A DNA stretch of 22,641 nt from a virus, in IMG/VR virus record IMGVR_UViG_3300020160_000788, positions 1 through 22,641 of that record. One strand, written 5' to 3'. Positions 7,379-18,099 of this stretch are shown here, piece by piece; position 1 is the first letter of the stretch, and every line of letters starts with the position of its first letter. The notes under the pieces were generated by a model, which was not told the origin of the DNA, searched no databases, and saw nothing but the letters and a program-made list of their open reading frames with translations. Made by a program: the position numbers and the translations under genes.

Positions 7379-7693
7379 TTATCCAATGTTTGGATCAATG
7401 CCTCTTGAACGGACGCCACCTTTTTTACGTTGTGCGGCAAGTTCTTCTAGACCATGTCTAATCTGCTCAACGTTCATTGCTAGCTCTGAAAAGTTTTTGG
7501 AAATTGTTTCCCATTCTAAGGGACTAGCGTGTTCTGCTCTTTTGGCAAGATCCTTTAACTGGCCTGCCGCACGTAGCATACGAAACTGTAGCTTACCTGG
7601 GTTGGCTCCCTGATGACTATGCACTAATGGATTCATTGGTTCACTAGGATCAAAGTCGATAGGTGCTTCTGTTAATAGTTCGTTTATTTTCAT
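7379..7693 (-). CDS. Putative packaged virion protein with capsid-targeting-like N-terminus (104 aa)
   Basis: It begins MKINELLTE followed by A, which fits the T4 prohead protease pattern (L/I-x-E before A/G/S) and resembles the T4 capsid-targeting peptide MKTYQEFIAE-A. The rest is mostly helical: residues 35-90 contain long amphipathic helices (LRAAGQLKDLAKRAEHA, ISKNFSELAMNVEQIRHGLEELAAQ), and a basic KKGGVRSRG tail follows. No enzyme motif is seen. It overlaps the upstream 125-aa gene by 4 bases and lies downstream of a late-type promoter. Role as an internal head protein is inference. Confidence 0.72.
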   Translation of the reverse strand: MKINELLTEAPIDFDPSEPMNPLVHSHQGANPGKLQFRMLRAAGQLKDLAKRAEHASPLEWETISKNFSELAMNVEQIRHGLEELAAQRKKGGVRSRGIDPNIG

Positions 7694-8067
7694 ATGCCGT
7701 ATTTGTTTCGTTTAGGTTTAGCCACCGCGCTAACTGTGTTGATGGTATCTAGTTCTTTACTTTTCATATCACCGTGATTAAGGTCTTTATAGCTTGCACC
7801 TACTGCCTTGGCCGCAAGTTTAAACATATCCTGTTCCTCTTGTGTATATGGATGTACAGTTTTCTTTTTACCAAACCAACTCTTAGCATCTATATCTGGA
7901 GCAGTTTTACCGTCAGTACATGCCATGGCCTGCCCCAACCTAAATGCTACATAATCAGTATTAGCCTTTTCAGCATCTCCGTAGACATTGATACCACGAC
8001 TAGACTGACTCTGTCGCTTAGTCATCTTTGTCTGTTTTTTTTCGGTGATAAAATCTTTTGCTCTCAT
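7690..8067 (-). CDS. Conserved T4-like phage protein with MRAKDFITE N-terminus (125 aa)
   Basis: I start it at the second ATG (8067), because the first (8082) would encode five residues across the late promoter GATAAATA, and because the start MRAKDF matches MRANEF and MRAKEF in two other genes here. The N-terminus MRAKDFITE-K is capsid-targeting-like. The body contains YVAFRLGQAMACTDGKTAPDIDAKSW (about 34-59) and a PYTQEEQDMFKLAAKAVGA helix, ending in basic KPKRNKYGI. I recognise the body as common in marine T4-like phages but know no function. It probably belongs to the virion. Confidence 0.72.
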   Translation of the reverse strand: MRAKDFITEKKQTKMTKRQSQSSRGINVYGDAEKANTDYVAFRLGQAMACTDGKTAPDIDAKSWFGKKKTVHPYTQEEQDMFKLAAKAVGASYKDLNHGDMKSKELDTINTVSAVAKPKRNKYGI

Positions 8068-8072
8068 GCTAG

Positions 8073-8089
8073 TATTTATCATATAAATA
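8073..8089. promoter_or_regulatory. Symmetrical divergent pair of T4-late-type promoters
   Basis: The plus strand reads TATAAATA at 8082-8089, the exact T4 late -10 element, and the minus strand reads GATAAATA at 8080-8073. Together they form the inverted repeat TATTTAT-CAT-ATAAATA. Each element ends exactly 5 bases before an ATG (8095 plus, 8067 minus). T4 late transcripts start a few bases after this box, so both mRNAs would begin at or very near the start codon. Confidence 0.7.
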
Positions 8090-8094
8090 TTTCT

Positions 8095-8766
8095 ATGATA
8101 GTTACTGACAATGCGTTATATTTACACATGCCTAAAACGGGCGGCAATTGGGTTAGAGAAGTGTTGAAATCAATAACAATTGAAGATTTTGGACACAGAC
8201 TACCATCTAACGATTTTCATCGCCCTAACGTATATTTGTTTGTTAGAAACCCATGGCAATGGTATAACAGCTTATATCATTATTTGATCTATGGGTCGGA
8301 AATTTATAATCCAGCAGATAATTTTATTGACCCTTTAATTCGAGCATTTGGGCATACTCCTTCATTTACTGAATTTATAGAAGCGTTATGCTATCCTACA
8401 GATATGTATAAAAAGAAAGTGTCAATACTGTCTAAATCTTCAGACTTGGTACGGAATACTTCGCAAACACCGTTTTGGCAAATGTGGCTAGACTCTAATG
8501 GAAGTTTATATGATGTTGTCAGCAGTAATTTTATTGCTACCGCAACTAGGGTAGGTACTACAGAAAATATTGCAATTGATCTTCGACAGATGTTAGTTGA
8601 GTCAGGAGATTTAACTAGTGAAATTGATAGCCTACTGACTACAACCCAACATAAAAATGTTGAAAACTGTTTAGTTGAATATCAAACACTATATACAGAT
8701 CATTTAAAAAGCGTAGTTGCTAACACTTCAAAAACATTAATTGACCAGTTTAACTACGAATTTTAG
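8095..8766 (+). CDS. Sulfotransferase-family protein (223 aa), the only plus-strand gene
   Basis: LHMPKTGGNWVREVL (residues 10-24) matches the 5'-phosphosulfate loop of PAPS-dependent sulfotransferases (PKxGxxW), and LFVRNPWQWYNSLYHY (48-63) matches the 3'-phosphate-binding segment (R-x-P...S). These enzymes move a sulfuryl group from PAPS to a sugar, lipid or protein acceptor. I chose the ATG at 8095; the frame is open further upstream, but that stretch is antisense to the 125-aa gene and would not add to the motif strand. There is no ribosome binding site, and a late promoter box ends 5 bases before the ATG. The codons are more AT-rich than in neighbouring genes, which suggests recent gain. 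It converges on the desaturase gene and overlaps it by 17 bases. Confidence 0.8.
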   Translation: MIVTDNALYLHMPKTGGNWVREVLKSITIEDFGHRLPSNDFHRPNVYLFVRNPWQWYNSLYHYLIYGSEIYNPADNFIDPLIRAFGHTPSFTEFIEALCYPTDMYKKKVSILSKSSDLVRNTSQTPFWQMWLDSNGSLYDVVSSNFIATATRVGTTENIAIDLRQMLVESGDLTSEIDSLLTTTQHKNVENCLVEYQTLYTDHLKSVVANTSKTLIDQFNYEF

Positions 8767-9454
8767 CTAGCCCCACGTAACTAAACAATTTAAACCACAT
8801 CCACCCAATATCAAATTCAAACCAACGACGGCTTAGTTTAGGGTTAGCAGGATCTAAGTGATGATTGTTGTGTAGTTCTTCACCGCCTATTAGGATACCC
8901 CAAGGTACTACATTATGTGAATGGTCTTTTGTTTCACCGTTACGATAACCCCACCAGTGTCCAATGCCGTTAATAAAACCAGCGGCCCAGAATGGTATCC
9001 ATATCATCTGAACACCCCACACTACAAATCCCCAAGGCCCAAATAATAACAGATCTATGATCAACATTAAAAGAATGCCTAGTTTGTGGTGAGGTGTATA
9101 AAGTTTGCGTTCAATCCAGTCTTTGGGAGTACCCATGCCGTATTTCATAACCATATGAGCATCACTGCCAGCACGATTATAATACTTAACTCCACCGAAT
9201 ACCAAGTTCCATATGCCAAATACATGCGGACTATGTGGATCACCTTCTACGTCTGTATTTTGATGATGCTTACGATGGATAGCTACCCATTGTTTGGTAG
9301 TCATGCCGGTCGTCAGCCATAACCAGAAACGCATAAAATGACTTAGCACAGGATGAAATTCAATCCCCCTATGTGCCTGACATCTATGTAGGTACAGTGT
9401 TACACATACTATTGTGATATGTGTCATCACTAATATTGCTATAATTTCTATCAT
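8750..9454 (-). CDS. Fatty acid desaturase (delta-9 type, membrane di-iron)
   Basis: The three histidine boxes of membrane acyl desaturases are present: HRCQAH (23-28), HRKHH (60-64) and HNNHH (195-199), plus the additional GHWWGYRN His (H166). Hydrophobic segments flank them at about 3-20, 38-50, 125-140 and 143-162. The enzyme introduces a double bond in acyl chains of membrane lipids using O2 and reduced ferredoxin or cytochrome. At 234 aa it is shorter than bacterial DesC (about 270-300) but complete in motifs. A late-type GATAAATA box ends 4 bases before the ATG. It likely raises host membrane fluidity during infection; phage desaturases are known from marine myoviruses. Confidence 0.93.
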   Translation of the reverse strand: MIEIIAILVMTHITIVCVTLYLHRCQAHRGIEFHPVLSHFMRFWLWLTTGMTTKQWVAIHRKHHQNTDVEGDPHSPHVFGIWNLVFGGVKYYNRAGSDAHMVMKYGMGTPKDWIERKLYTPHHKLGILLMLIIDLLLFGPWGFVVWGVQMIWIPFWAAGFINGIGHWWGYRNGETKDHSHNVVPWGILIGGEELHNNHHLDPANPKLSRRWFEFDIGWMWFKLFSYVGLAKIRS

Positions 9455-9458
9455 CTAA

Positions 9459-9466
9459 TATTTATC
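9459..9466 (-). promoter_or_regulatory. T4-late-type promoter box for the desaturase
   Basis: The minus strand reads GATAAATA at 9466-9459, followed by TTAG and the desaturase ATG at 9454. There is no Shine-Dalgarno sequence, so a transcript from here would be leaderless or nearly so, as at the 8073-8089 pair. The box directly follows the T-run that ends the GC-rich element. Confidence 0.6.
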
Positions 9467-9469
9467 CGT

Positions 9470-9569
9470 AAAAAAATGCTCACTTTCAGGATTCCCGGTA
9501 GCGAATCGGGCCGTCCTGCGCCAGCAGCCGGCGCACACTATCGGTAACAAGTACCGGTCCTAAGGTGTG
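9470..9569 (-). ncRNA. GC-rich three-hairpin element, candidate structured RNA
   Basis: The gap between the phosphatase and desaturase genes is about 60% GC by my count over 9478-9570, in an AT-rich genome. It folds into three adjacent hairpins: CACAC 9534-9538 with GTGTG 9565-9569 enclosing CGGTA 9542-9546 with TACCG 9552-9556; CGCC 9519-9522 with GGCG 9530-9533; and CAGGA 9487-9491 with TCCTG 9514-9518 enclosing CCCG 9494-9497 with CGGG 9507-9510. On the minus strand the last hairpin is followed by a run of seven T (9476-9470). I could not fold a tRNA on either strand. It could be a small RNA ending in a terminator, a leader element of the desaturase mRNA, or a foreign remnant. The strand is inferred from the T-run. 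Confidence 0.5.
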
Positions 9570-9573
9570 TTCT

Positions 9574-10335
9574 TTAATGTTTCTTTGCTTTGCCCGCTTT
9601 CATATTAGCCAACCAATGTGCTAGTTGACCTTTGCGGCCACCTTGCTTGGCAGTCTTACGTAGACTACTTACTGATGCTTTGGTATTAATGCCGTGACGT
9701 TTACTGTCGCCTTTGTCTTGCGGATTACGACCATCAGCAAAGTTTTCATCTGTACGCTTATATTCTCTAGCCTCACCTTCAAGACTCACATGCCATGCAT
9801 AAAACTTAGTTTTTTGATATTCATCTTTAAGTTCTACAAATGATTCTAAGTTAGGAACCGCGTCATCGTACATAATAGCTTTAGTATAGTTGCCCTTATC
9901 TAGCAAGTTACGTATAATAATCTTTTTCTTTTCTTCCGTTTGAATCTTACCTTGCATGTTGCCTGCACGATAAACATGAACTTTTGCCATGTCTACACCA
10001 TATTTTCGGAATGTATCTAAGAACAGTTCACGGTCATCAAAGTCAGCACGGGCAGTAACCATAACAACTTTATTGCCTGTAGCAATGTCTTGTTTGAGTT
10101 GGTTCATCATAGGAATGATTGGTTTACTTTTGTGAAAAAAGTCGTGTGCGTTACGAAAGTTCTCAAAGTCAAACTGCTCGCCTGGCTGTAGTTTGTAGTG
10201 TGTAAACTCGTGACTGTTAAGTTCTTTAGTCACTTGTCCGTCTTTAACTACGTGGACTTTAGTCTGTGTATGAACCAGCGTGTCATCTATGTCAAAGATA
10301 ACTAGTTTCTTTGGCTGGAACTCTTTTGCTCTCAT
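9574..10335 (-). CDS. HAD-superfamily phosphatase with phage-specific basic tail (253 aa)
   Basis: HAD motif I is FDIDDTL with nucleophile D15 and D17. Motif II is VMVTAR (T94) and motif IV is YDDAVPNL (D157, D158), with a conserved lysine region (EEKKKIIIRN) between. Such enzymes remove phosphates; polynucleotide 3'-phosphatases such as that of T4 PseT belong here, but the substrate cannot be told. After residue 200 comes a basic segment, KASVSSLRKTAKQGGRKGQLAHWLANMKAGKAKKH, not part of the HAD fold and typical of virion-linked proteins in marine T4-likes. It starts MRAKEF like two capsid-targeting-like genes but lacks the cleavage Glu. It overlaps the upstream stop by one base (TAATG). Confidence 0.85.
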   Translation of the reverse strand: MRAKEFQPKKLVIFDIDDTLVHTQTKVHVVKDGQVTKELNSHEFTHYKLQPGEQFDFENFRNAHDFFHKSKPIIPMMNQLKQDIATGNKVVMVTARADFDDRELFLDTFRKYGVDMAKVHVYRAGNMQGKIQTEEKKKIIIRNLLDKGNYTKAIMYDDAVPNLESFVELKDEYQKTKFYAWHVSLEGEAREYKRTDENFADGRNPQDKGDSKRHGINTKASVSSLRKTAKQGGRKGQLAHWLANMKAGKAKKH

Positions 10336-10901
10336 TAGCAGTTCCAGCGTCTACGTGCTTTACATATTGCTTTGTCTGGAGTCTTGGCACATGAGATATT
10401 GTGCATGTTCATTTGACCCTTTGAGCGAGAACAGTAGCTACTGCGTCTTTTAGATGCCTTGCCACCTTTTTTAAGTTTGCTAGGTTTAGTTGTTACAGCA
10501 GTCTTTAACTTACTACCTGGATTCTCTCTACGATAGGCATTGACAGCCTTTTGACTCATGCCGTCTGTCTTGTCTTGCTTGTTGGCTTTTTGCCAATCTT
10601 CTGTAACAAGTTCTTGTGTAACAGCAAAGACATATAGTTCGTCATCTGTAAGTGTATCTAAATCTTCCCATATCTCTTCAGCATCTACTTGATTGTGGTT
10701 AGCAAGACCTTCGATGATTGACTCAATAAGATCAAACTCTTCAGATAGCTCCAGGCTTTCATTAGGCACACAGTTACGGACCTGTTTGCCATTCTTACCT
10801 TTCTTTGTTCCTGCCGCATGGTAACCTGACCAACAACTAGTATAACCGTTTGAGTCTTTTTGACCTTTCTTAATCTCAGTTATAAATTCATTTGCTCTCA
10901 T
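10335..10901 (-). CDS. DUF6321-like Cys-rich basic protein with capsid-targeting-like N-terminus (188 aa)
   Basis: It starts MRANEFITE-I. An N-terminal basic segment has paired Cys (YTSCWSGYHAAGTKKGKNGKQVRNC, residues 21-45). A middle acidic helical region spans 48-103, and the last 45 residues are Lys/Arg-rich with three Cys (SSYCSRSKGQMN, SCAKTPDKAIC, ending RRRWNC). This C-terminus is what I recall as DUF6321 in marine T4-like phages. A basic, Cys-bearing domain suggests DNA or RNA binding, perhaps with metal. It overlaps the 45-aa membrane ORF upstream by 4 bases. Packaging in the head is inferred from the N-terminus. Confidence 0.75.
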   Translation of the reverse strand: MRANEFITEIKKGQKDSNGYTSCWSGYHAAGTKKGKNGKQVRNCVPNESLELSEEFDLIESIIEGLANHNQVDAEEIWEDLDTLTDDELYVFAVTQELVTEDWQKANKQDKTDGMSQKAVNAYRRENPGSKLKTAVTTKPSKLKKGGKASKRRSSYCSRSKGQMNMHNISCAKTPDKAICKARRRWNC

Positions 10902-11035
10902 AGTTCATTAATCTCATCAAATGTTAAAGGTAGTCCACCCATACCTGCACCAAATAAGGCTAATCCTTTATACAGGGCTGTAAGGGTTGCGAGGACGATC
11001 AGTACCGTCGTCTTCTGGATAGACTGGATATTCAT
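10898..11035 (-). CDS. Small single-span membrane protein (45 aa), overlapping frame
   Basis: From ATG at 11035 the frame encodes a short polar N-terminus, a hydrophobic span (about residues 9-35, TTVLIVLATLTALYKG and LALFGAGMGGLPL) and an acidic tail FDEINEL. Its TGA overlaps the next start by 4 bases, matching the packing of neighbouring genes, and GAGAG lies just upstream. Its first half overlaps another frame starting at 11045, and there it uses GC-ending codons (CAG, ATC, ACG, CTG) unlike the local style, while its second half uses normal phage codons. It may be a genuine small membrane protein, or its second half may be reached by frameshifting from the other frame. Confidence 0.5.
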   Translation of the reverse strand: MNIQSIQKTTVLIVLATLTALYKGLALFGAGMGGLPLTFDEINEL

Positions 11036-11045
11036 TTTCTCTCAT
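10968..11045 (-). CDS. Short Pro/Asp-rich peptide (25 aa), possible upstream frame of the small membrane ORF
   Basis: ATG at 11045 overlaps the Dps stop by 4 bases (ATGA), the junction used throughout this region. The peptide MRENEYPVYPEDDGTDRPRN, then PYSPV, is hydrophilic and uses phage-like codons (GAA, AAT, CCA, ACT, GAT). It ends at TAA (10970-10968) inside the 45-aa ORF, which lies in the +1 frame. Either this is a tiny separate gene, or it is the first part of a frame-shifted protein continuing as LYKGLALFGAGMGG. Sequence error could also explain it. Confidence 0.4.
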   Translation of the reverse strand: MRENEYPVYPEDDGTDRPRNPYSPV

Positions 11046-11476
11046 TTTAGTGTAGAGCGTAGAAACCAGCTGTGTTTACGATGTGCATCTTGACGTTCAG
11101 CTAGGAAGTTTGATAATCCGTACTCTCCAGAGCCATCAGCCATTTTGTAAACCATTGCCATTAGCTGTGCTAGTTTATCACTGTCAGCTAATAGTTCAGC
11201 GGTCATTGCTCTTGGATCAATAACTTGATTTTCATCTTCAACTACTGTTAACATACTAAATCTAGACAAGCTAGCAGGAGTGTATGCACCGCTCTTACGA
11301 ATGTTTTCTGCAAACGCATCTATACTTCCATAAACTTCGTCATAGATTGTTTCAAACAATGTATGGAACTCAAGAAAGTCTGGGCCTTCAGTGTTCCAAT
11401 GAAAGTTCTGTGCCTTTAGTGCAAATGCGTATTCGCTGGCAAATGCTATTTTTAATGCGTTGATTAACTGTTCCAT
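11042..11476 (-). CDS. dps: Dps-like ferritin with intact ferroxidase site
   Basis: The 144-aa protein has the Dps core: KAQNFHWNTEGPDFLEFHTLFETIYDEVYGSIDAFAEN. Residues H26, H38, E42, D53 and E57 match the spacing of the Listeria Dps ferroxidase site (H31, H43, D47, D58, E62), with one Asp replaced by Glu. Dps proteins bind iron at subunit interfaces, oxidise it with peroxide and shield DNA. I chose the ATG at 11476, just after the upstream TAA (TAATATG), rather than the one at 11503, because it removes a 26-base overlap and starts MEQLINALKIAF. The protein lies among virion-type genes, so it may coat or protect phage DNA, or guard the host during infection. Confidence 0.88.
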   Translation of the reverse strand: MEQLINALKIAFASEYAFALKAQNFHWNTEGPDFLEFHTLFETIYDEVYGSIDAFAENIRKSGAYTPASLSRFSMLTVVEDENQVIDPRAMTAELLADSDKLAQLMAMVYKMADGSGEYGLSNFLAERQDAHRKHSWFLRSTLK

Positions 11477-11477
11477 A

Positions 11478-11711
11478 TTACCCACATATCTGTATAACTG
11501 CATAGATACCTGTGACTAACAGGGCCTTAAGAGCCATATCGTCTGCTTCTGCATCTAATCTATCTGTTCTAACTAAGTCTTCCAATAGCTCTTTCGCTTC
11601 ACTTGGGTTTATTTGTCCAGCTTGTAATGCCTGTCCAATCTGATATGCTGTATTAGCACGTTCAGCCGCCCAACCTTTACCTGAGTTAATACATTGCATA
11701 AGTTCGTTCAT
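11478..11711 (-). CDS. Small helical conserved phage protein (77 aa)
   Basis: The protein is mostly helical, with SGKGWAAERANTAYQIGQALQAG (residues 10-32), an acidic middle (PSEAKELLEDLVRTDRLDAEADDM) and a hydrophobic end (ALKALLVTGIYAVIQICG) that could touch a membrane. Its ATG overlaps the lipoprotein stop by one base. I recall similar short proteins in marine T4-likes next to Dps-like genes. Function unknown. Confidence 0.68.
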   Translation of the reverse strand: MNELMQCINSGKGWAAERANTAYQIGQALQAGQINPSEAKELLEDLVRTDRLDAEADDMALKALLVTGIYAVIQICG

Positions 11712-12100
11712 TAGAATCTCCCTAGTACTGCACTAGCCGCACGTTCAGCTTGTGTAGTCATTAACTTTTTCTTAATCTCGCAATAGGCATCTGACCCTTG
11801 CTTTTCACTTGTACTGCGCTTGTAAAAATCATCTACTGTTTCTTGCATTGGCTTGATTAAACGTAATACATCTTTTTGTCTGTCGCCCTTGCTAGTACTA
11901 TATAGTTCAAACCATTGTAGGTTATCTTTAATCTGTTTAACTTGCGGTGCGTGTGGTTGTTTGCAATCTAACTGTGCTACACTTTGACGAACATCAATAA
12001 TCTTAGCTGACTGATTAGGATCCTGGAAACTAGGAATCATTTCCTTAACACTTGCACAGCCAGTTAATGCAACTGCTAATACTAATGCCAGTAGTCTCAT
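11711..12100 (-). CDS. Lipoprotein (129 aa), candidate outer-membrane lysis or envelope protein
   Basis: The N-terminus MRLLALVLAVALTGCAS is a lipoprotein signal with lipobox LTGC (lipidated C15). The rest is helical and polar, with two more Cys (C46, about C107) that could form a disulfide. Export and lipidation point to the periplasmic face of the host envelope. Outer spanins of tailed phages have this layout, but they are usually shorter and paired with an inner-membrane partner, which is not seen beside it. The ATG overlaps the preceding stop (TAATG). Confidence 0.75.
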   Translation of the reverse strand: MRLLALVLAVALTGCASVKEMIPSFQDPNQSAKIIDVRQSVAQLDCKQPHAPQVKQIKDNLQWFELYSTSKGDRQKDVLRLIKPMQETVDDFYKRSTSEKQGSDAYCEIKKKLMTTQAERAASAVLGRF

Positions 12101-13161
12101 TATTCTAAACCCTTCTTAGCTTCTTCTAAGTTTACATAATCTTTAAAACTTAGGCTTTCGTTCTTAGGAGCCCACCATTTGCCAACACCAAATGCTTTGT
12201 CAGCTGAGTCTTTTTGCATACCGAATGAGCGACCACTTGTGTTGTACTTGGTCTTTGCCCATTTGCCACTTTTAGTTTTCTTAACGCCTAAGCTGGCGGC
12301 TTCTTGTTCTTGTCCAGGTTGTACATTATAAAAGAACATACCAGTCATTTTAGGTTTGTCTTGCGGTGCTTGATATTGACCTCTTGGCTCGTCCCAGCCT
12401 TCATCATTAGCGCCGCCGTCTTGTTGATAAGCAATACTATCTCGTTTACCCATACCGCTTACACTTGATGCATAATCTCTATCGTATGCTGTTGAGCTAC
12501 CTGGTTTTCTATACATACCTGCTTCGTCTATTTTGTCACCTAATGGTAAGTACCAAAACCAGTTTTCAAATCCACCCGGGTTAGTGTCATAGTCCATATG
12601 TGCGCTGTTTCTAGCACCGTTACACATTCTTTTAAACTCACTTTCTGCACCGTGTGATTTTGCAATACTTGCAAGCTCATTGTATAACTGTTCCGCACCT
12701 GATTTGTCTTTATGCTTTTCAATACCTGGTGCAAGTTCATTAAACTTGTCACTTAACTCAGCATGTAACTCATCCATTGCACCTTCGGTAACACTTTCAC
12801 CCATACTATCGTTAAACATGTCTGGTTGTAGAATGCCTTTACCAACGTTGTGGTAAGCAGTCATAAATGCATTAAACTTTTCCATCATGTCACGTAGATT
12901 GGCTTCGTCTGCGTTGATTTTAATCTTGTTGACCTGTGCCATTACTTCGTCTTGAATAGTATCAGCAGCCAATAAAAATGCATTAGCATCACCGCCTACT
13001 GAGCCTGCTTCAAAACTTGTAATGACAGATTCTTGTGCAGGTGTATATGGGTTTGTACTTTCTCTAACAATGGATACAAACTTCTTCATATCATTAGCAC
13101 CTTGCACAGGCTTCTTAGTAGTTGCTCCATCAAAGGCCTGTAATATTTTCTTCATATCCAT
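12100..13161 (-). CDS. Putative virion structural protein (353 aa)
   Basis: The N-terminal part (1-110) is helical, with MKKILQAFDG and later MKKFVSIVRESTNPYTP. An internal SVTE-G near residue 122-126 fits the prohead-protease pattern. The second half is rich in Gly, Ser, Asp and Lys with aromatic patches (FENWFWYLPLGDK), then a KKTKSGKWAKTKYNTSGRSFG stretch. Its C-terminus, SFKDYVNLEE-AKKG, resembles the capsid-targeting sequence that other genes here carry at the N-terminus. An AAGGA site lies 9 bases before ATG. I do not recognise the family; cleavage in the head is inferred. Confidence 0.7.
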   Translation of the reverse strand: MDMKKILQAFDGATTKKPVQGANDMKKFVSIVRESTNPYTPAQESVITSFEAGSVGGDANAFLLAADTIQDEVMAQVNKIKINADEANLRDMMEKFNAFMTAYHNVGKGILQPDMFNDSMGESVTEGAMDELHAELSDKFNELAPGIEKHKDKSGAEQLYNELASIAKSHGAESEFKRMCNGARNSAHMDYDTNPGGFENWFWYLPLGDKIDEAGMYRKPGSSTAYDRDYASSVSGMGKRDSIAYQQDGGANDEGWDEPRGQYQAPQDKPKMTGMFFYNVQPGQEQEAASLGVKKTKSGKWAKTKYNTSGRSFGMQKDSADKAFGVGKWWAPKNESLSFKDYVNLEEAKKGLE

Positions 13162-13173
13162 TTTGTCTATTCC

Positions 13174-14238
13174 TTATTTTGCCGCGTTCTTCCACATGGC
13201 GGCTGCGGCAATCTTCTTACCTTTTTCACCACCACCTGCGGCTTTAGCTACTTTGTCAAAACTTTTACCTGGCTTGCCAATGTCTTTACCTGCTTGGGCT
13301 TTTTTAACTAATGTTGACTTAGCACCTTTGCTCATACCTGCACTTGGCTTAGCGGCTTCGTATGCCATTGTAGTACCACATTCTTTTAGACCGTGTACTG
13401 GACACTTCTCACCTTTGTCGGTGTGATTGCATTTGGCATCAGCTTCTTTTAAACGTCCGTCTTTTTCTGCTGACTTTAACATTGCCGCACGATCTGCATA
13501 GCTACCACGCTTAACATCTTTGGCCGCTGTCTTCTCACCCTTAGTAGGATTCTTAACATGCTTTAATGGATCAAACTTTTCAGAAGCTTCTTTAACCTTC
13601 TTATCTGCTTCTGCACCACGACCACTGTAGTTCTTACCAGCTGTGTGTTTAATACCTGTTGCTGTCTTTTCAATAGTGCCACCAGTTGCAGATTTTTTCT
13701 TATCTCCAACTTTCATACCGCTTGTACCTTCTGCATCTTTCTTAGCACTGGCCACTGTTGGGAAACCTTCTTTGAATGGCTTACCTGATTTTGCCGCTGC
13801 CTTGGCACGTGAACCCCAAACTTCATCTTTGTTTGTTTCAACTTTGCCATCGCCATCGTAATCTTTCTTGGCTTTTTTAACAGCACTTTCTAATAGTGCT
13901 TTTAGATGTTGTTCGTAGTTCATAGATTCTTTCATGTTAGGTTCCTCGTCATCAGCTTCTTCTGCGGCACGAGCGGCAGTTTCCATATCTCCAGTAATGT
14001 CATCAACGCTTGACGCAACTGCGCCTTGGCCAAACTTTACTTGATATTCCATATAGTGGTAGATACTGTCTAAGTAATCTGCCGCTTTAGTAATCTTTGC
14101 TTGTACCCAACCTTCTAACTGTTGGTTATTTTGAATCATTTGAAACAGTTTCATAGAGTGCTTGGCAGCTCTATATAGGTCAGCCCTGGCCATTCCGCCT
14201 TCGTCGTCTGGGCCTTGCATTTGTACTTGTGGTTGCAT
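13174..14238 (-). CDS. Lys-rich virion-type protein with DxDGDG motif and Cys/His cluster (354 aa)
   Basis: Residues 15-70 form a folded helical part (LYRAAKHSMKLFQMIQ, LEGWVQAKITKAADYLDSIYHYMEYQ), which I associate with structural proteins of marine T4-likes. Then follow an acidic linker, a DYDGDGKVETNKDE segment (126-139) like a calcium loop, and a long Lys/Ala/Gly-rich tail that is probably disordered. A compact cluster C270, H272, C279, H282, C287 could bind zinc. GGAG lies 6 bases before ATG, and a late promoter box is 19 bases upstream. Such a basic protein probably associates with packaged DNA. Function is inferred from composition and position. Confidence 0.72.
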   Translation of the reverse strand: MQPQVQMQGPDDEGGMARADLYRAAKHSMKLFQMIQNNQQLEGWVQAKITKAADYLDSIYHYMEYQVKFGQGAVASSVDDITGDMETAARAAEEADDEEPNMKESMNYEQHLKALLESAVKKAKKDYDGDGKVETNKDEVWGSRAKAAAKSGKPFKEGFPTVASAKKDAEGTSGMKVGDKKKSATGGTIEKTATGIKHTAGKNYSGRGAEADKKVKEASEKFDPLKHVKNPTKGEKTAAKDVKRGSYADRAAMLKSAEKDGRLKEADAKCNHTDKGEKCPVHGLKECGTTMAYEAAKPSAGMSKGAKSTLVKKAQAGKDIGKPGKSFDKVAKAAGGGEKGKKIAAAAMWKNAAK

Positions 14239-14257
14239 GAGTAACTCCGTTATTTTA

Positions 14258-14265
14258 TATTTATC
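14258..14265 (-). promoter_or_regulatory. T4-late-type promoter box before the 354-aa virion gene
   Basis: The minus strand reads GATAAATA at 14265-14258, overlapping the stop of the 104-aa gene. Unlike the boxes at 8073-8089 and 9459, it leaves a 19-base gap with a good GGAG site (14248-14245) before the ATG at 14238, as in a normal late gene. Confidence 0.65.
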
Positions 14266-14575
14266 GTTTGATACTTCCGCCGGTCATTAAGTTATCGCCA
14301 TCTAAAGCGTTGGTTCCGGGCTTTTGCATCTTGGGTTTTTTGTTCTTGTATACTACGCCTACAGCTACATTACCTGCGCTAGTACCCCCTGCTGTTGCAG
14401 TTTCTGCAACAGCAAGTTCTTTATTCTTGTGTTTAACGTCACCTTGTTTAGCGGCCTTCTTTTTGTCTTTGTGTGCGCCAGCGCCGGTATTGATGGCATT
14501 TTTAGCTACAAAGTTACGTGGCTTGGGTGCTTCTGCTTTTTTAGTTTTACCTTCTAATAGTTCACTTATTCTCAT
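14261..14575 (-). CDS. Lys/Ala-rich putative internal head protein with MRISELLE-G start (104 aa)
   Basis: The N-terminus MRISELLE followed by G fits the prohead-protease cleavage rule (L-x-E before G). The rest is low complexity: basic (NFVAKNAINTGAGAHKDKKKAAKQGDVKHKNKE, residues 21-53), then a Gly/Ala/Thr stretch and a basic end. It has no globular motif, as with T4 internal proteins. It overlaps the 44-aa gene by 4 bases. Confidence 0.72.
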   Translation of the reverse strand: MRISELLEGKTKKAEAPKPRNFVAKNAINTGAGAHKDKKKAAKQGDVKHKNKELAVAETATAGGTSAGNVAVGVVYKNKKPKMQKPGTNALDGDNLMTGGSIKR

Positions 14576-14706
14576 GATGGTTCCTTAGTAGTTTGGGGCG
14601 ACTCTGCTTTTTTAGGTTTAATAGGTTCAATAAACTTTTTAGGTTTCTTGTTGTATTTTTTAGCACGAATGCCTTTCTTGTGTTCAAATAGTTCACGTAA
14701 TGTCAT
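14572..14706 (-). CDS. Very short basic protein with MTLRELFE start (44 aa)
   Basis: ATG at 14706 overlaps the upstream TGA, and its own TGA overlaps the next ATG by 4 bases, so it is locked into the gene chain on both sides. It fills what would otherwise be a 127-base gap. It begins MTLRELFE-H like the longer neighbours and then is strongly basic (KKGIRAKKYNKKPKKF). It looks like a stand-alone capsid-targeting peptide plus DNA-binding tail. Confidence 0.75.
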   Translation of the reverse strand: MTLRELFEHKKGIRAKKYNKKPKKFIEPIKPKKAESPQTTKEPS

Positions 14707-14990
14707 ACAGGAGGTTCTCCTGTGAGATAAGGCAGACTAAACCATAACTTAAACCATTCTTGTGTTCCGGGCTGTATGTTATGCTTCTTCATTAGCTCGC
14801 CCTTACTATTGCCAGTAACACTTATGTTACTACCTTGATTAGCACGATACTCATGTAGTCTAGCCTCTGCACCTAGTCCGCCCATGCCAGATAATATCTT
14901 TAGTTCGTGTATGGGATCGTTAGGCGCAAGATAACAATCATCAGGACTATCCTGATTTAAGTCTTGACTTGTTATCTTATATTGTTTCAT
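14703..14990 (-). CDS. Conserved T4-like phage protein (95 aa)
   Basis: It reads MKQYKITSQDLNQDSPDDCYLAPNDP, then a helix with GMGGLGAEARLHEYRAN, then a C-terminal part (PGTQEWFKLWFSLPYLTGE) that is aromatic and folded. It carries no capsid-targeting-like end. I recall close relatives in cyanophages, without a function. It overlaps both neighbours by 4 bases. Confidence 0.72.
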   Translation of the reverse strand: MKQYKITSQDLNQDSPDDCYLAPNDPIHELKILSGMGGLGAEARLHEYRANQGSNISVTGNSKGELMKKHNIQPGTQEWFKLWFSLPYLTGEPPV

Positions 14991-16189
14991 TTTACTAGTC
15001 TAAATGCTTTGAGATTTTTGCGTGGAGTACCTTTGTTTACATCAACAGTTGAGTTTTGTTTAGTAATGATGCCTACACCTGCCGCATCTTCTTGTGTTTG
15101 CATAGATTCTTTTCTAAATGCTTTGTATGCTAGTAGTTTTTGATATTCATCTGAACGTAGAGGAATATTCTTTTTAAGTTTATGCACTAACATTATAATA
15201 TCGTTAGGCATCTTTTGAGTTGTTAACGACTTTTTCTTTATGTCTAGTTCGCTTAATGAAGCGTCCTCACCTAATCCATATCCATCACGGATAGCCATTA
15301 ATACTTCACTTACGCTAGCTTCTGTGGTTGGCAATGTGTCTTGCTCGCCAATATCTGGCCTGCCACCTTCAAATGTACCTAGTGCATAGGTAAACATACC
15401 GTCACCCTCGTTATCAATCATAACCATGTAATATTGGCTTTCATCTTCTGCACCTTTGGTACTAAACATGAAAGCATCGTCACCTTTACGCTGTACCTTC
15501 CATCCCATGGCCTTCATTGCACTACTAATCTTATTAGCAACTTCGGGCCACGATAATGCATTACCTAATGTTGCTTCTGTCATACCTTCTACAGGCGCCG
15601 CAACTTTTTTCTTTGCTGTTTTCTTTACAGGAGTATTGGAGTACGGTAGTAAGTATTCTGCTACTAGATCAAAGAACGGCTTGCCAGCAACTGGAGTATC
15701 AGCATCTACACCTGCGGCATTAGCAAACGCTTCGCGATCACCTTTAGAGACAGCATCGCGTAATGCAGTAGCTGAACTTAACCGTGGTGTTGGCTTTTGT
15801 TTGATATTTTTAAAGTTATAAAAACCGTGAGCACCTTCTTTACCATTGTACTGTATAATAGTTTTAGTAACCCAATCTTCATCAGTTAAACATAACAAAG
15901 TAACATCACCATGTTTTTCATATACTAGACTTGCCAGTGTTAGCCATGATGTTTCTGCAATAATATGTCCTTCAACTTCTGGCCATATGGCAGTCATTGC
16001 TTCTACCTTAATGCCGTATGGTAATGGATCTTTTGGACCTACTGTGCTTTCGTTTGTGCCTACATACCAAACGGGACTTTTTGAGGCAAGTTCCCATGCG
16101 GCTCTATGTCCCTTGTGCGGAGGATTAAAGCGACCAAATATAATGGCAACTTCCTGTCCCATTCCTTCAAATAGTTGTCTTAGTTTCAT
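14987..16189 (-). CDS. HxGH nucleotidylyltransferase with capsid-targeting-like N-terminus (400 aa)
   Basis: After MKLRQLFE-G comes IIFGRFNPPHKGH (residues 16-28), the phosphate-binding (H/T)xGH motif of nucleotidylyltransferases, and later RLSSATALR (136-144), which matches the ISSTxxR signature. Enzymes with this pair join a nucleotide from ATP or CTP to a phosphate acceptor, such as NMN, phosphopantetheine or glycerol-phosphate. Residues 1-195 hold this domain. Residues 210-400 form a separate part of unknown fold with a strand-rich region (DAFMFSTKGAEDESQYYMVMI) and a basic end. An AAGGA site lies 8 bases before ATG. NMN adenylylation, linked to NAD, is one option but the substrate is not visible. 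Confidence 0.83.
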   Translation of the reverse strand: MKLRQLFEGMGQEVAIIFGRFNPPHKGHRAAWELASKSPVWYVGTNESTVGPKDPLPYGIKVEAMTAIWPEVEGHIIAETSWLTLASLVYEKHGDVTLLCLTDEDWVTKTIIQYNGKEGAHGFYNFKNIKQKPTPRLSSATALRDAVSKGDREAFANAAGVDADTPVAGKPFFDLVAEYLLPYSNTPVKKTAKKKVAAPVEGMTEATLGNALSWPEVANKISSAMKAMGWKVQRKGDDAFMFSTKGAEDESQYYMVMIDNEGDGMFTYALGTFEGGRPDIGEQDTLPTTEASVSEVLMAIRDGYGLGEDASLSELDIKKKSLTTQKMPNDIIMLVHKLKKNIPLRSDEYQKLLAYKAFRKESMQTQEDAAGVGIITKQNSTVDVNKGTPRKNLKAFRLVK

Positions 16190-16198
16190 AATAAGTCC

Positions 16199-17341
16199 TT
16201 AGGTCGGCGTCCAACGCTTGCGAGGTACAAGTTTAACGTGACCTAGCTGTTTATTTTGATCTGCATATCGAACACGACCTTCGCCATTAGTGTCCCATAT
16301 TTCGCCCTGTTCGCCTTCAATCTGATCAATGATGTCGTCCTTCATTGCCTGTATTCTTTTTACCAGTGTAAAGATAGTTGCTAACGCTGTTGGATTAGCC
16401 GCAACAAGCTCATTAATCTTTGCCTGCTTACCTGGACTGGTCTTTGAGGAGGCCAACCAATCTGTAAAATGTTTTGGACTTAGACTGTCTAACTGTTTTG
16501 CTTTGGCAGTTTGATTTACATAAGTGTAGATAATATTCTTTAAGTCGCTTAGTCCCGGAAGTCCCTGTAGGAATCCGTCCATCTGACCACCGTGTGCTTG
16601 TGCAAACTGTTCAATGGCATCAACTGCTGTTGTATCAATCTTAACAGGTTTGCTGTTGTATATTGGACCAAGCACGATTAGTTGTGGATTGCTGTTAAAC
16701 TGACTAAAGTCACTGATAGGCTTTTGACTAGCATCAGGCATACCAAACTCTGGAAAGAACGCATGTCCCACAACCATTACCTGTGCGCCACTGATACGTT
16801 TACCTAATCCGCTATTAGAGCGAACATGATAGCATGTTTGACTTTTATTATTGGGACAAAAGTTATATACACCTTCTTTATCTGCCGGAGGTTGTTGTAG
16901 AAACAAACCATCAGCATAAACAAATCCCACAAAGTCACGTGGAGTAGCTTTGTCAAACAATGGATACAGACTAGAAAACTCGCTAGCAAACTTATCACGT
17001 GCGGCTTTTTCTTCTGGAGTCTTGGGACTTCCTGATTTGTTGGCAATAAAATCTTGTACAGCTTCCGGACTATCTGTTACTGCACCTTTGCTCCAACCGT
17101 TGTGTCCTGCTAGCACTAATGGGCCGTTAGCTTGTTCACGTCCCCAATATATTTGTGGATTGCCGTCCCACTTCATACGAATACTATTAGCGCCTTCTTG
17201 ACTAGCAAAGTCTTTAATATGACTTAGTGCTTCAAGTGTGCCTTTGGTACCGTGGAAGAAAACTAAATCTTCTAAGTGATTGAACGCTCGGCCTAACTGT
17301 TTAGGTGCCTCTGCTTCTTTAAACAGTTGTCTTAATCTCAT
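16199..17341 (-). CDS. KxDG ligase/nucleotidyltransferase-like protein with capsid-targeting-like N-terminus (380 aa)
   Basis: It begins MRLRQLFKE-A. Residues 53-68 (SIRMKWDGNPQIYWGR) carry the KxDG motif of covalent nucleotidyltransferases (K57), with an aromatic pair after it. FVGFVYADGLFL lies where motif III would be, and near the end an EG (354-355) and KLVPRKRW (370-377) resemble motifs IV and V. This fits the uncharacterised phage family I recall as DUF6267. The action could be nucleic-acid end joining or capping; no helical OB-fold is clear. It overlaps the pol-beta-type gene by 4 bases, and the pairing suggests linked work on nucleic-acid ends. Confidence 0.7.
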   Translation of the reverse strand: MRLRQLFKEAEAPKQLGRAFNHLEDLVFFHGTKGTLEALSHIKDFASQEGANSIRMKWDGNPQIYWGREQANGPLVLAGHNGWSKGAVTDSPEAVQDFIANKSGSPKTPEEKAARDKFASEFSSLYPLFDKATPRDFVGFVYADGLFLQQPPADKEGVYNFCPNNKSQTCYHVRSNSGLGKRISGAQVMVVGHAFFPEFGMPDASQKPISDFSQFNSNPQLIVLGPIYNSKPVKIDTTAVDAIEQFAQAHGGQMDGFLQGLPGLSDLKNIIYTYVNQTAKAKQLDSLSPKHFTDWLASSKTSPGKQAKINELVAANPTALATIFTLVKRIQAMKDDIIDQIEGEQGEIWDTNGEGRVRYADQNKQLGHVKLVPRKRWTPT

Positions 17342-18099
17342 AACTGTACCTTATCCAACATATGACGGAACCATTCGTTAGTTCCGATACGATAACTTTC
17401 TTGACGAACTGGTACTTCTTTCCAGTTGGCATCTTGTTTAGCTCTATCTAGTAATGCCGTTGCTTCATCTTTTGGCAAAGCAGCCAATACTGACTCAACA
17501 CTGCCTAAATCTTTAGCACTACCGTTAGGTCCGAACAAGTGTTTAGCAACGTCATCTAAGTTGTCAGCAACTAGTTCACCCTTCTTACCTTCTGGTGTAC
17601 GACTAAACAGTCCCTGCCATGCTGACCACATATAGCCTTTTTGCTTAGCCAGTATGGCCATTATAAGTTGTTTATTAACACCCTTGTAAGGACTATTATC
17701 TGGAATAGCATGTGTATGGAACTTAGATACTTTCTCAGCATTAGCCGATACCATAACGTCTACTTGATGAAACTCTCCACCAACTGGAACATTTACGTGT
17801 ACATTAATACCGCTTTGTGCGGTTTCTAAACCTTTACTACTGATATAATCGTTAAGTGCCTTACGTCCTGCTTTGGCATCTTTGGCTTTGAAATAGTCTA
17901 GTACTGCCTGCTCGTCAACAATAACATCCATATCGCCACTAGTCTTACCTGGCTTAGGTGTTGCGGCGGAACCAACAGGGATAGCAGTAATACCTGTACC
18001 ACCTAGTGTTCCATTGATGGTTTTAAGTATTGCAGGAACATCTTTGTGATCAAATGGAGTTGCATTGGCAAATACGTTGCCACCTTCTAATAAAATCAT
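17338..18099 (-). CDS. Pol-beta-type nucleotidyltransferase (253 aa)
   Basis: GS (43-44) followed by SGDMDVIV (54-61) gives the two metal-binding Asp of the nucleotidyltransferase superfamily (D56, D58), and HQVDVMVS (111-118) gives the third (D114). Such enzymes add a nucleotide to RNA, DNA, protein or an antibiotic. The N-terminus MILLE-GGN is a short form of the protease-site pattern (L-L-E before G). The C-terminus contains KQLIMAILAKQKGYMWSAWQGLF and an end (YRIGTNEWFRHMLDKVQL). It overlaps both neighbours by 4 bases and is followed by the ligase-like gene. Confidence 0.8.
   Translation of the reverse strand: MILLEGGNVFANATPFDHKDVPAILKTINGTLGGTGITAIPVGSAATPKPGKTSGDMDVIVDEQAVLDYFKAKDAKAGRKALNDYISSKGLETAQSGINVHVNVPVGGEFHQVDVMVSANAEKVSKFHTHAIPDNSPYKGVNKQLIMAILAKQKGYMWSAWQGLFSRTPEGKKGELVADNLDDVAKHLFGPNGSAKDLGSVESVLAALPKDEATALLDRAKQDANWKEVPVRQESYRIGTNEWFRHMLDKVQL

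Follow-up and report, generated by a model that had tools for sequence, protein, structure and literature searches.

Targeting of internal proteins to the capsid is known for phage T4 (PMC9026906), and the ip genes of T-even phages were found through their signal (PMC9026906, PMC12373910), as the available passages of these papers describe. According to the accessible text of the former, IPIII genetics indicates that residues 4 and 7 matter for targeting, and residues 8 and 10 for processing. In this study, we analyzed a stretch of 22,641 nucleotides from an uncultivated virus (positions 1-22,641 of IMGVR_UViG_3300020160_000788, further referred to as the window), a relative of phage T4. Judging by its sequence, the window contains T4-like replication genes and homologs of Clp and DnaJ, with a mostly minus-strand run of genes between them. 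Seven of its genes begin with similar short peptides ending with a hydrophobic residue, any residue and glutamate. We propose, with a probability of roughly 0.8, that these shared N-termini are T4-type capsid-targeting sequences, i.e. tags cut off by the prohead protease, some of which precede polyproteins. Good support for head targeting through a cleavable N-terminal peptide comes from the presence of gp21 and gp23 in long relatives, from a motif that outlasts the turnover of the tags, and from tagged enzymes found in cyanophage virions, including homologs of the cytidylyltransferase of the window. The tagged genes are listed below, with the proposed cut marked by a slash.

7379..7693, minus strand, gene with the tag MKINELLTE/A at 7667-7693
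7690..8067, minus strand, gene with the tag MRAKDFITE/K at 8041-8067; an alternative start lies five codons upstream
10335..10901, minus strand, two-module gene (a CWxGY module, then DUF6321) with the tag MRANEFITE/I at 10875-10901
14261..14575, minus strand, gene with the tag MRISELLE/G at 14552-14575
14572..14706, minus strand, open reading frame (ORF) of 44 amino acids with the tag MTLRELFE/H at 14683-14706
14987..16189, minus strand, cytidylyltransferase/NMNAT-like gene with the tag MKLRQLFE/G at 16166-16189
16199..17341, minus strand, DUF6267 gene, ligase-like with KxDG, with the tag MRLRQLFKE/A at 17315-17341

Both DUF assignments exceed the Pfam cutoffs (DUF6321, PF19846, 36.6 bits against 28.5; DUF6267, PF19782, 58.1 bits against 27). 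The cytidylyltransferase gene was recognized by PHROG 3041 (E 5e-13), with its Pfam score under the cutoff, and the 44-amino-acid ORF had 14 BLAST matches to close relatives in our first set of loci.

The shared N-terminal pattern is not due to chance. Its strict form, ^M[KR]..[EQD][LF][LFI].?E, occurs at exactly six ORF starts of the window, all on the minus strand, namely those of all genes listed above except the 44-amino-acid ORF, which has a close form of it. In the 167-kb genome of the relative G002, a slightly wider strict pattern was found in 6 of 165 called genes, all between 83.9 and 91.2 kb, in the locus homologous to that of the window; none of 749 internal methionine positions matched, and shuffled N-termini gave a mean of 0.04 matches and a maximum of 1. 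The corresponding counts were 7/416 genes against 1/1907 internal methionines in G001, and 4/136 against 0/664 in G003, the gene caller having at times chosen later starts (two G003 genes), which lowers such counts. In the marine relative G010, the wider strict pattern was found in none of 181 genes and at 2 of 841 internal methionines; tags of this phage take another form. Broad patterns were abandoned as too loose, since in G010 they matched 7 of 181 genes with a shuffle mean of 5.0.

Comparison of N-termini across relatives of each gene, proposed as a check when the locus had been read from sequence only, turned out in favor of the tags. Among 121 distinct N-termini of relatives of six tagged families, whose bodies are indeed unrelated, as that reading had maintained, 110 have retained the motif [LIVMF]-x-E; by family, named after the first coordinate, it is present in 1/3 (7379), 6/9 (7690), 8/9 (10335), 16/17 (14261), 36/36 (14987) and 43/47 (16199). 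The residue following the glutamate is A, S or G in at least 75 of these 110. Among N-termini of 22 other families of the window, the motif is present in 31 of 263, and 14 of the 31 come from Clp. The bodies stay similar across relatives while the first ten residues turn over, giving such diverged tags as MRLRELF, MRAFEFLNEA, MRYAELVEA and MRFNEFRMIKEA, and MENFADFITE in marine relatives. The Clp start is probably not a tag: the site occurs in 14 of 19 relative N-termini, mostly with lysine next, and appears to be one inherited start. The sequence-only reading had counted at least eight genes with the pattern. Six strict cases and the close form stand, but the gene at 17338..18099 (minus strand), which starts with MILLE-G and which, by its motif, we take to be of the pol-beta type, had to be removed from the tagged set, as [LIVMF]xE at positions 7-13 was found in 0 of 23 distinct N-termini of its relatives. 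Pfam and PHROG searches with this gene gave no match.

The machinery which would recognize and cut the tags is encoded by relatives; the window fragment itself holds neither of the two key genes. A gp21-type protease (PF03420) and gp23 (PF07068) were both found in the same four of ten records (G001, G002, G003 and G010), and neither profile matched in the six other, shorter records. In the relatives, gp21 and gp23 adjoin, in T4 order, genes that by location and length correspond to those for portal, core and scaffold. The capsid cleavage site at the conserved RR block corresponds between T4 (FLTE/A), this clade (YLSE/S) and the marine relative (FLTE/T), with the register read by eye, because the MAFFT alignment split the propeptide region. 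We formulated a T4-register rule, in which positions 4, 7 and 8 are hydrophobic and position 10 is glutamate. Applied to 278 annotated T4 genes, it selects five, i.e. IPII, IPIII, gp24, Alt and 61.1, and misses IPI, whose tag is longer. Tags of cyanophages and of marine relatives do fit the exact T4 register.

Virions of cultured cyanophages provide outside evidence. A cytidylyltransferase was reported in virions of S-SM1 (available text of PMC3037559), S-SCSM1, S-SZBM1 and S-CREM2, and is cited for S-CBWM1; the portion of the S-CREM1 account at hand names none among 14 virion proteins. In the passages available, the cyanophage authors suggest that virion enzymes act early. For S-CREM2, 52 virion proteins were reported (PMC10665884, Table 3), and the T4-register rule is obeyed by 5 of them and by 1 of the 167 other proteins (p 0.003). 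The five are SAM hydrolase (MKDFDSFLEE), gp13 (MKDLHSFLTE), a kinase (MKRFDAFLTE), gp136 (MQTFSMFFSE) and the cytidylyltransferase (MKNFSSFLTE/A). The broader patterns R1 and R2 gave p values of 0.06 and 0.04, respectively, for all virion proteins of this phage, and of 0.02 and 0.007 when the count was restricted to the 28 that carry no structural name. The virion NMNAT of S-SCSM1 starts with MKSFLQFLKE/A, and the virion cytidylyltransferase of S-SZBM1 with MRFRQFIIE/A, a shorter form like that of the window. For S-SCSM1, the paper states 45 virion proteins; record notes together with product names give 48, and this number was used here.

Profiles of 17 genes or modules of the window were compared with the proteomes of these three cyanophages (654 proteins, 129 marked as virion). 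Five queries matched something and twelve matched nothing. The modules of tagged window genes gave nine matches to eight cyanophage proteins, seven of which are virion proteins (p 7e-5). The DUF6267 profile had one match in each cyanophage, none of the three being virion proteins and all being untagged, while the single match of the pol-beta-type profile was an undetected protein. Untagged and undetected DUF6267 homologs fit the idea of a tag; in the clade of the window, DUF6267 would be packaged. Of the packaged kit of nucleotidyl-transfer enzymes which had been postulated earlier, the cytidylyltransferase has homologs in cyanophage virions; membership of the pol-beta-type gene found no support. 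In S-CREM2, the Cas9-annotated virion protein gp12 (L167:7704-10313) contains RFASFMAE/A at residues 18-26, behind its annotated start.

Bodies of the tagged genes consist of modules, present in varied orders and recombined between phages. Neither this arrangement, with its sites at module junctions, nor the capsid N-arm copies described below had been noticed in the sequence-only reading. The 7379 body is fused behind the cytidylyltransferase in L050 (SLDE/AP) and L048 (SISE/AP), DUF6267 stands behind another module after SVNE/AEAPKQ, and DUF6321 stands behind PVNE, PIME or LVTE. In L191, the tag MKINEILTE is followed by modules behind SVEE, TLTE and PIME. Corresponding features of the window are the following.

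10599..10610, minus strand, putative internal cleavage site LVTE/DWQK, upstream of the DUF6321 module
14402..14413, minus strand, putative internal site AVAE/TATAGG in the gene 14261-14575
14264..14401, minus strand, module resembling the capsid N-arm; it begins TATAGGTSAGNVA, and the N-arm of the clade's capsid protein is SATAGATSAGNVA
9574..10335, minus strand, HAD-type gene, absent from the list of the sequence-only reading, with the start MRAKEFQPKK, tag-like without the glutamate, and an NFADG module towards the C-terminus; in the relative L064, MRASDFINE precedes the HAD domain

In the first set of loci, glutamate directly precedes the module in 47 of 57 distinct internal contexts, and L, I, V, M or F is at P3 of 35 of these 47 boundary glutamates, compared with 233 of 986 other glutamates of the same ORFs. 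After removal of two modules with a possible initial glutamate of their own, the values were 16/25 and 14/16. The test was repeated on 170 loci, kept out of 200 further ones fetched after removal of 30 that overlapped the first set. Glutamate was found at 116 of 139 contexts, and the hydrophobic P3 in 103 of 116 against 765 of 2801 other glutamates (p 6e-42, a value made too small by partly related contexts). For the six modules whose start is fixed by a window tag (7379, 7690, 10335, 14261a, 14987 and 16199), glutamate was present in 40 of 61 contexts and P3 was hydrophobic in 38 of 40, the weak cases being 14261a (glutamate in 10/23) and 14987 (0/2). Starts of the WSDKYK, DWNKV and NFADG modules were set by eye after the glutamate, so only the P3 test is informative there. 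At the boundaries, V, I, L and M prevail at P3. With a looser pattern and any start within the first 30 codons allowed, a tag was present in 161 of 257 ORFs with an internal boundary and in 75 of 826 module-free ORFs longer than 150 amino acids. Virion proteins also have sites before homologous modules, i.e. S-CREM2 gp137 (SMNE/DWQ) and gp160 (NLEE/KKN and EISE/GKK), and S-SCSM1 gp29 (LFNE/D and QVSE/G). In S-SZBM1, neither gp192 (undetected; MRAE/G) nor the virion protein gp139 has such a site before the module. A HELVH stretch, zinc-peptidase-like by eye, lies between putative sites in long tagged chains of three relatives (L094:12812-14065, L064:12035-13882 and L077:12467-14161).

Some small tagged proteins consist of a tag and a copy of the mature capsid N-arm, as MKIRDILE/SATAGATSSGNIATVV compared with the capsid YLSE/SATAGATSAGNVATLN. 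The same arrangement is present in T4 itself, where gene 61.1 (L182:18966-19130; 54 amino acids) encodes a capsid-targeting-like start, followed by a sequence copying the maturation junction of gp23 and by a basic tail. Its score against the gp23 N-arm is 82, and the best of 2000 shuffles reached 49. Of 50,697 phage records, 1386 contain a match to 61.1. The annotation of some is that of a major-capsid-domain or head protein, and weak matches may be capsid genes. The virion proteins S-CREM2 gp160 and S-SCSM1 gp97 copy the N-arms of their own capsid proteins (0 of 1000 shuffles each), and the N-arm likeness score of L144 was reached by 2 of 500 shuffles. S-SZBM1 gp134 was dropped as a weak candidate, its score being reached by 18 of 2000 shuffles. 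Such copies perhaps hold modules on the inner shell.

In DUF6267, the residues K57, D59 and G60 of KxDG are invariant in 31 sequences. A model built from these sequences has a mean predicted local distance difference test (pLDDT) score of 88, with residues 1-17 below 50, as expected for a removable tag. Foldseek gave no match to this model at E<=0.001. In the VIA comparison, the best Z was 7.0, below the trust level of Z 8, and 48 of the 50 rows listed had titles naming ligases, ligase complexes or capping enzymes, mostly RNA/DNA ligases. The structural comparison with the model, together with the invariant KxDG, favors a ligase-type enzyme, without proving it.

In the mechanism that we propose, a tag of 8-10 residues would carry each protein into the prohead core during head assembly. 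A gp21-type prohead protease would then remove the tag by cutting after [LIVF]-x-E. In longer precursors, it would also cut at this motif where modules meet, and a single tag could thereby deliver several proteins, e.g. small basic modules, a ligase-like enzyme and an NMNAT-like enzyme. After processing, the mature parts would stay inside the head together with the DNA until they pass into an infected host; injection and early action in the host are assumed by analogy with T4. Targeting, cleavage and injection are inferred, as are packaging in this clade and the functions of the parts. It is rather probable that a widespread group of aquatic T4-like phages builds head-targeted polyproteins, in which a tag precedes exchangeable modules linked by sites for the prohead protease, and from which head maturation would free a customizable set of injected proteins, some of whose modules copy the capsid N-arm.

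Several results weigh against this interpretation. The exact ten-residue T4 register is followed by none of the seven window tags, and a form shifted by one residue fits four of them. Tagged-looking proteins of S-SCSM1 (gp30) and S-SZBM1 (gp191 and gp192) are not listed in virions, two further undetected S-SZBM1 proteins obey the T4-register rule, and in S-SZBM1 alone the T4-register rule fits 0 of 30 virion proteins and 4 of 188 others. Pooled over the three cyanophages, it separates the two groups modestly (6/130 virion proteins compared with 6/589 others, p 0.011). Related module contexts are not independent, and the available portions of the literature examined show no cleaved N-terminus for any of these proteins. 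The authors of the S-CREM2 study caution that such virion enzymes could be contaminants, and the available text of PMC3037559 states that the citidylyltransferase was not detected in an earlier study of S-PM2 virions. If the enzymes were merely co-purified, they would be uninformative on packaging; the repeated reports of this enzyme from the cyanophages named above, and the enrichment of tagged proteins among those detected in S-CREM2, make this explanation quite unlikely.

A somewhat less unlikely, though still doubtful, alternative accepts that the tags target the prohead, and takes the internal [LIVM]xE sequences for uncut remnants of tags left after gene fusion. Tag-like internal contexts do occur in a few cases (SFADYLQM and GFKDYLQQ, for instance, ahead of the CWxGY module); however, most upstream linkers resemble neither tags nor one another (QESISE, TTQVKE, PYQVKE, SDPLME, KQWLTE), and only P3 and P1 are kept at the boundaries, with P4 and P2 mixed. 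It is improbable that the N-termini are amphipathic helices binding a membrane or a partner, with no link to the head. Richness of the tags in basic and aliphatic residues and a helix modelled at residues 2-8 of DUF6267 (pLDDT below 50) would agree with this idea, which leaves unexplained the fixed glutamate followed by A, S or G, the motif at internal boundaries and the detection of tagged enzymes in cyanophage virions. Functionless likeness due to recent duplication of gene starts has very little probability: some starts are close (MRAKDFITE and MRANEFITE), but tags as divergent as MRYAELVEA, MENFADFITE and MRFNEFRMIKEA keep the motif, and most other families of the region are without it. 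This retention across families disfavors duplication.

Other genes of the same locus include untagged desaturase-like (8750-9454) and Dps-like (11042-11503) ones, both on the minus strand and named by eye. The minus-strand gene at 12100-13089 has another in-frame start, from which the product would begin with the tag-like MKKFVSIVRE/S, a form kept in G002 and G003. A DNA-level pattern search of the window's own record gave no match.

The tags provide a sequence rule for predicting which phage proteins of unassigned role travel in the head, and offer a mechanism by which enzymes so far unaccounted for could have entered cyanophage virions. Should cutting occur at the module boundaries, capsid maturation would serve these phages for polyprotein processing. 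The capsid-mimic part can be tested in a laboratory phage owing to T4 61.1, which shares with the small tagged proteins a tag, a copy of the mature gp23 N-arm and a basic tail. In the titles, abstracts and passages of the open-licence literature that were available, no claim of head-targeted polyproteins or of cyanophage tags was found.

The closest described system is that of T4 IPI-III and Alt, in which a short N-terminal tag ending with hydrophobic-x-Glu likewise stands on unrelated bodies, variable basic proteins occur, and a gp21-type protease and gp23 are encoded, here by relatives. The window tags are different in having 8-9 residues and a shifted register, and in standing on ligase-like and NMNAT-like enzymes and on bodies arranged in multi-module chains. 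The T4 gp24 propeptide (MAKINELLRE/S) is nearly identical to MKINELLTE/A of the window, and the T4 table, in its available part, includes gp24 among the cleaved proteins; however, gp24 is a shell protein, whereas the window tags are located on proposed internal proteins. Cyanophage virion enzymes include a homologous cytidylyltransferase with a tag-like start (S-CREM2, S-SCSM1 and S-SZBM1), although the published accounts, in their available portions, describe no targeting sequence. Polyvalent proteins, according to the accessible text of PMC5512222, are shuffled multi-domain packaged proteins likened by their authors to polyproteins and released by embedded peptidases; in contrast, the sites described here match a separate prohead protease, most chains start with a capsid tag, and the chains would be packaged. 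To the capsid targeting known from T4, the present locus and its relatives add an enzyme kit, proposed polyproteins and N-arm mimicry.

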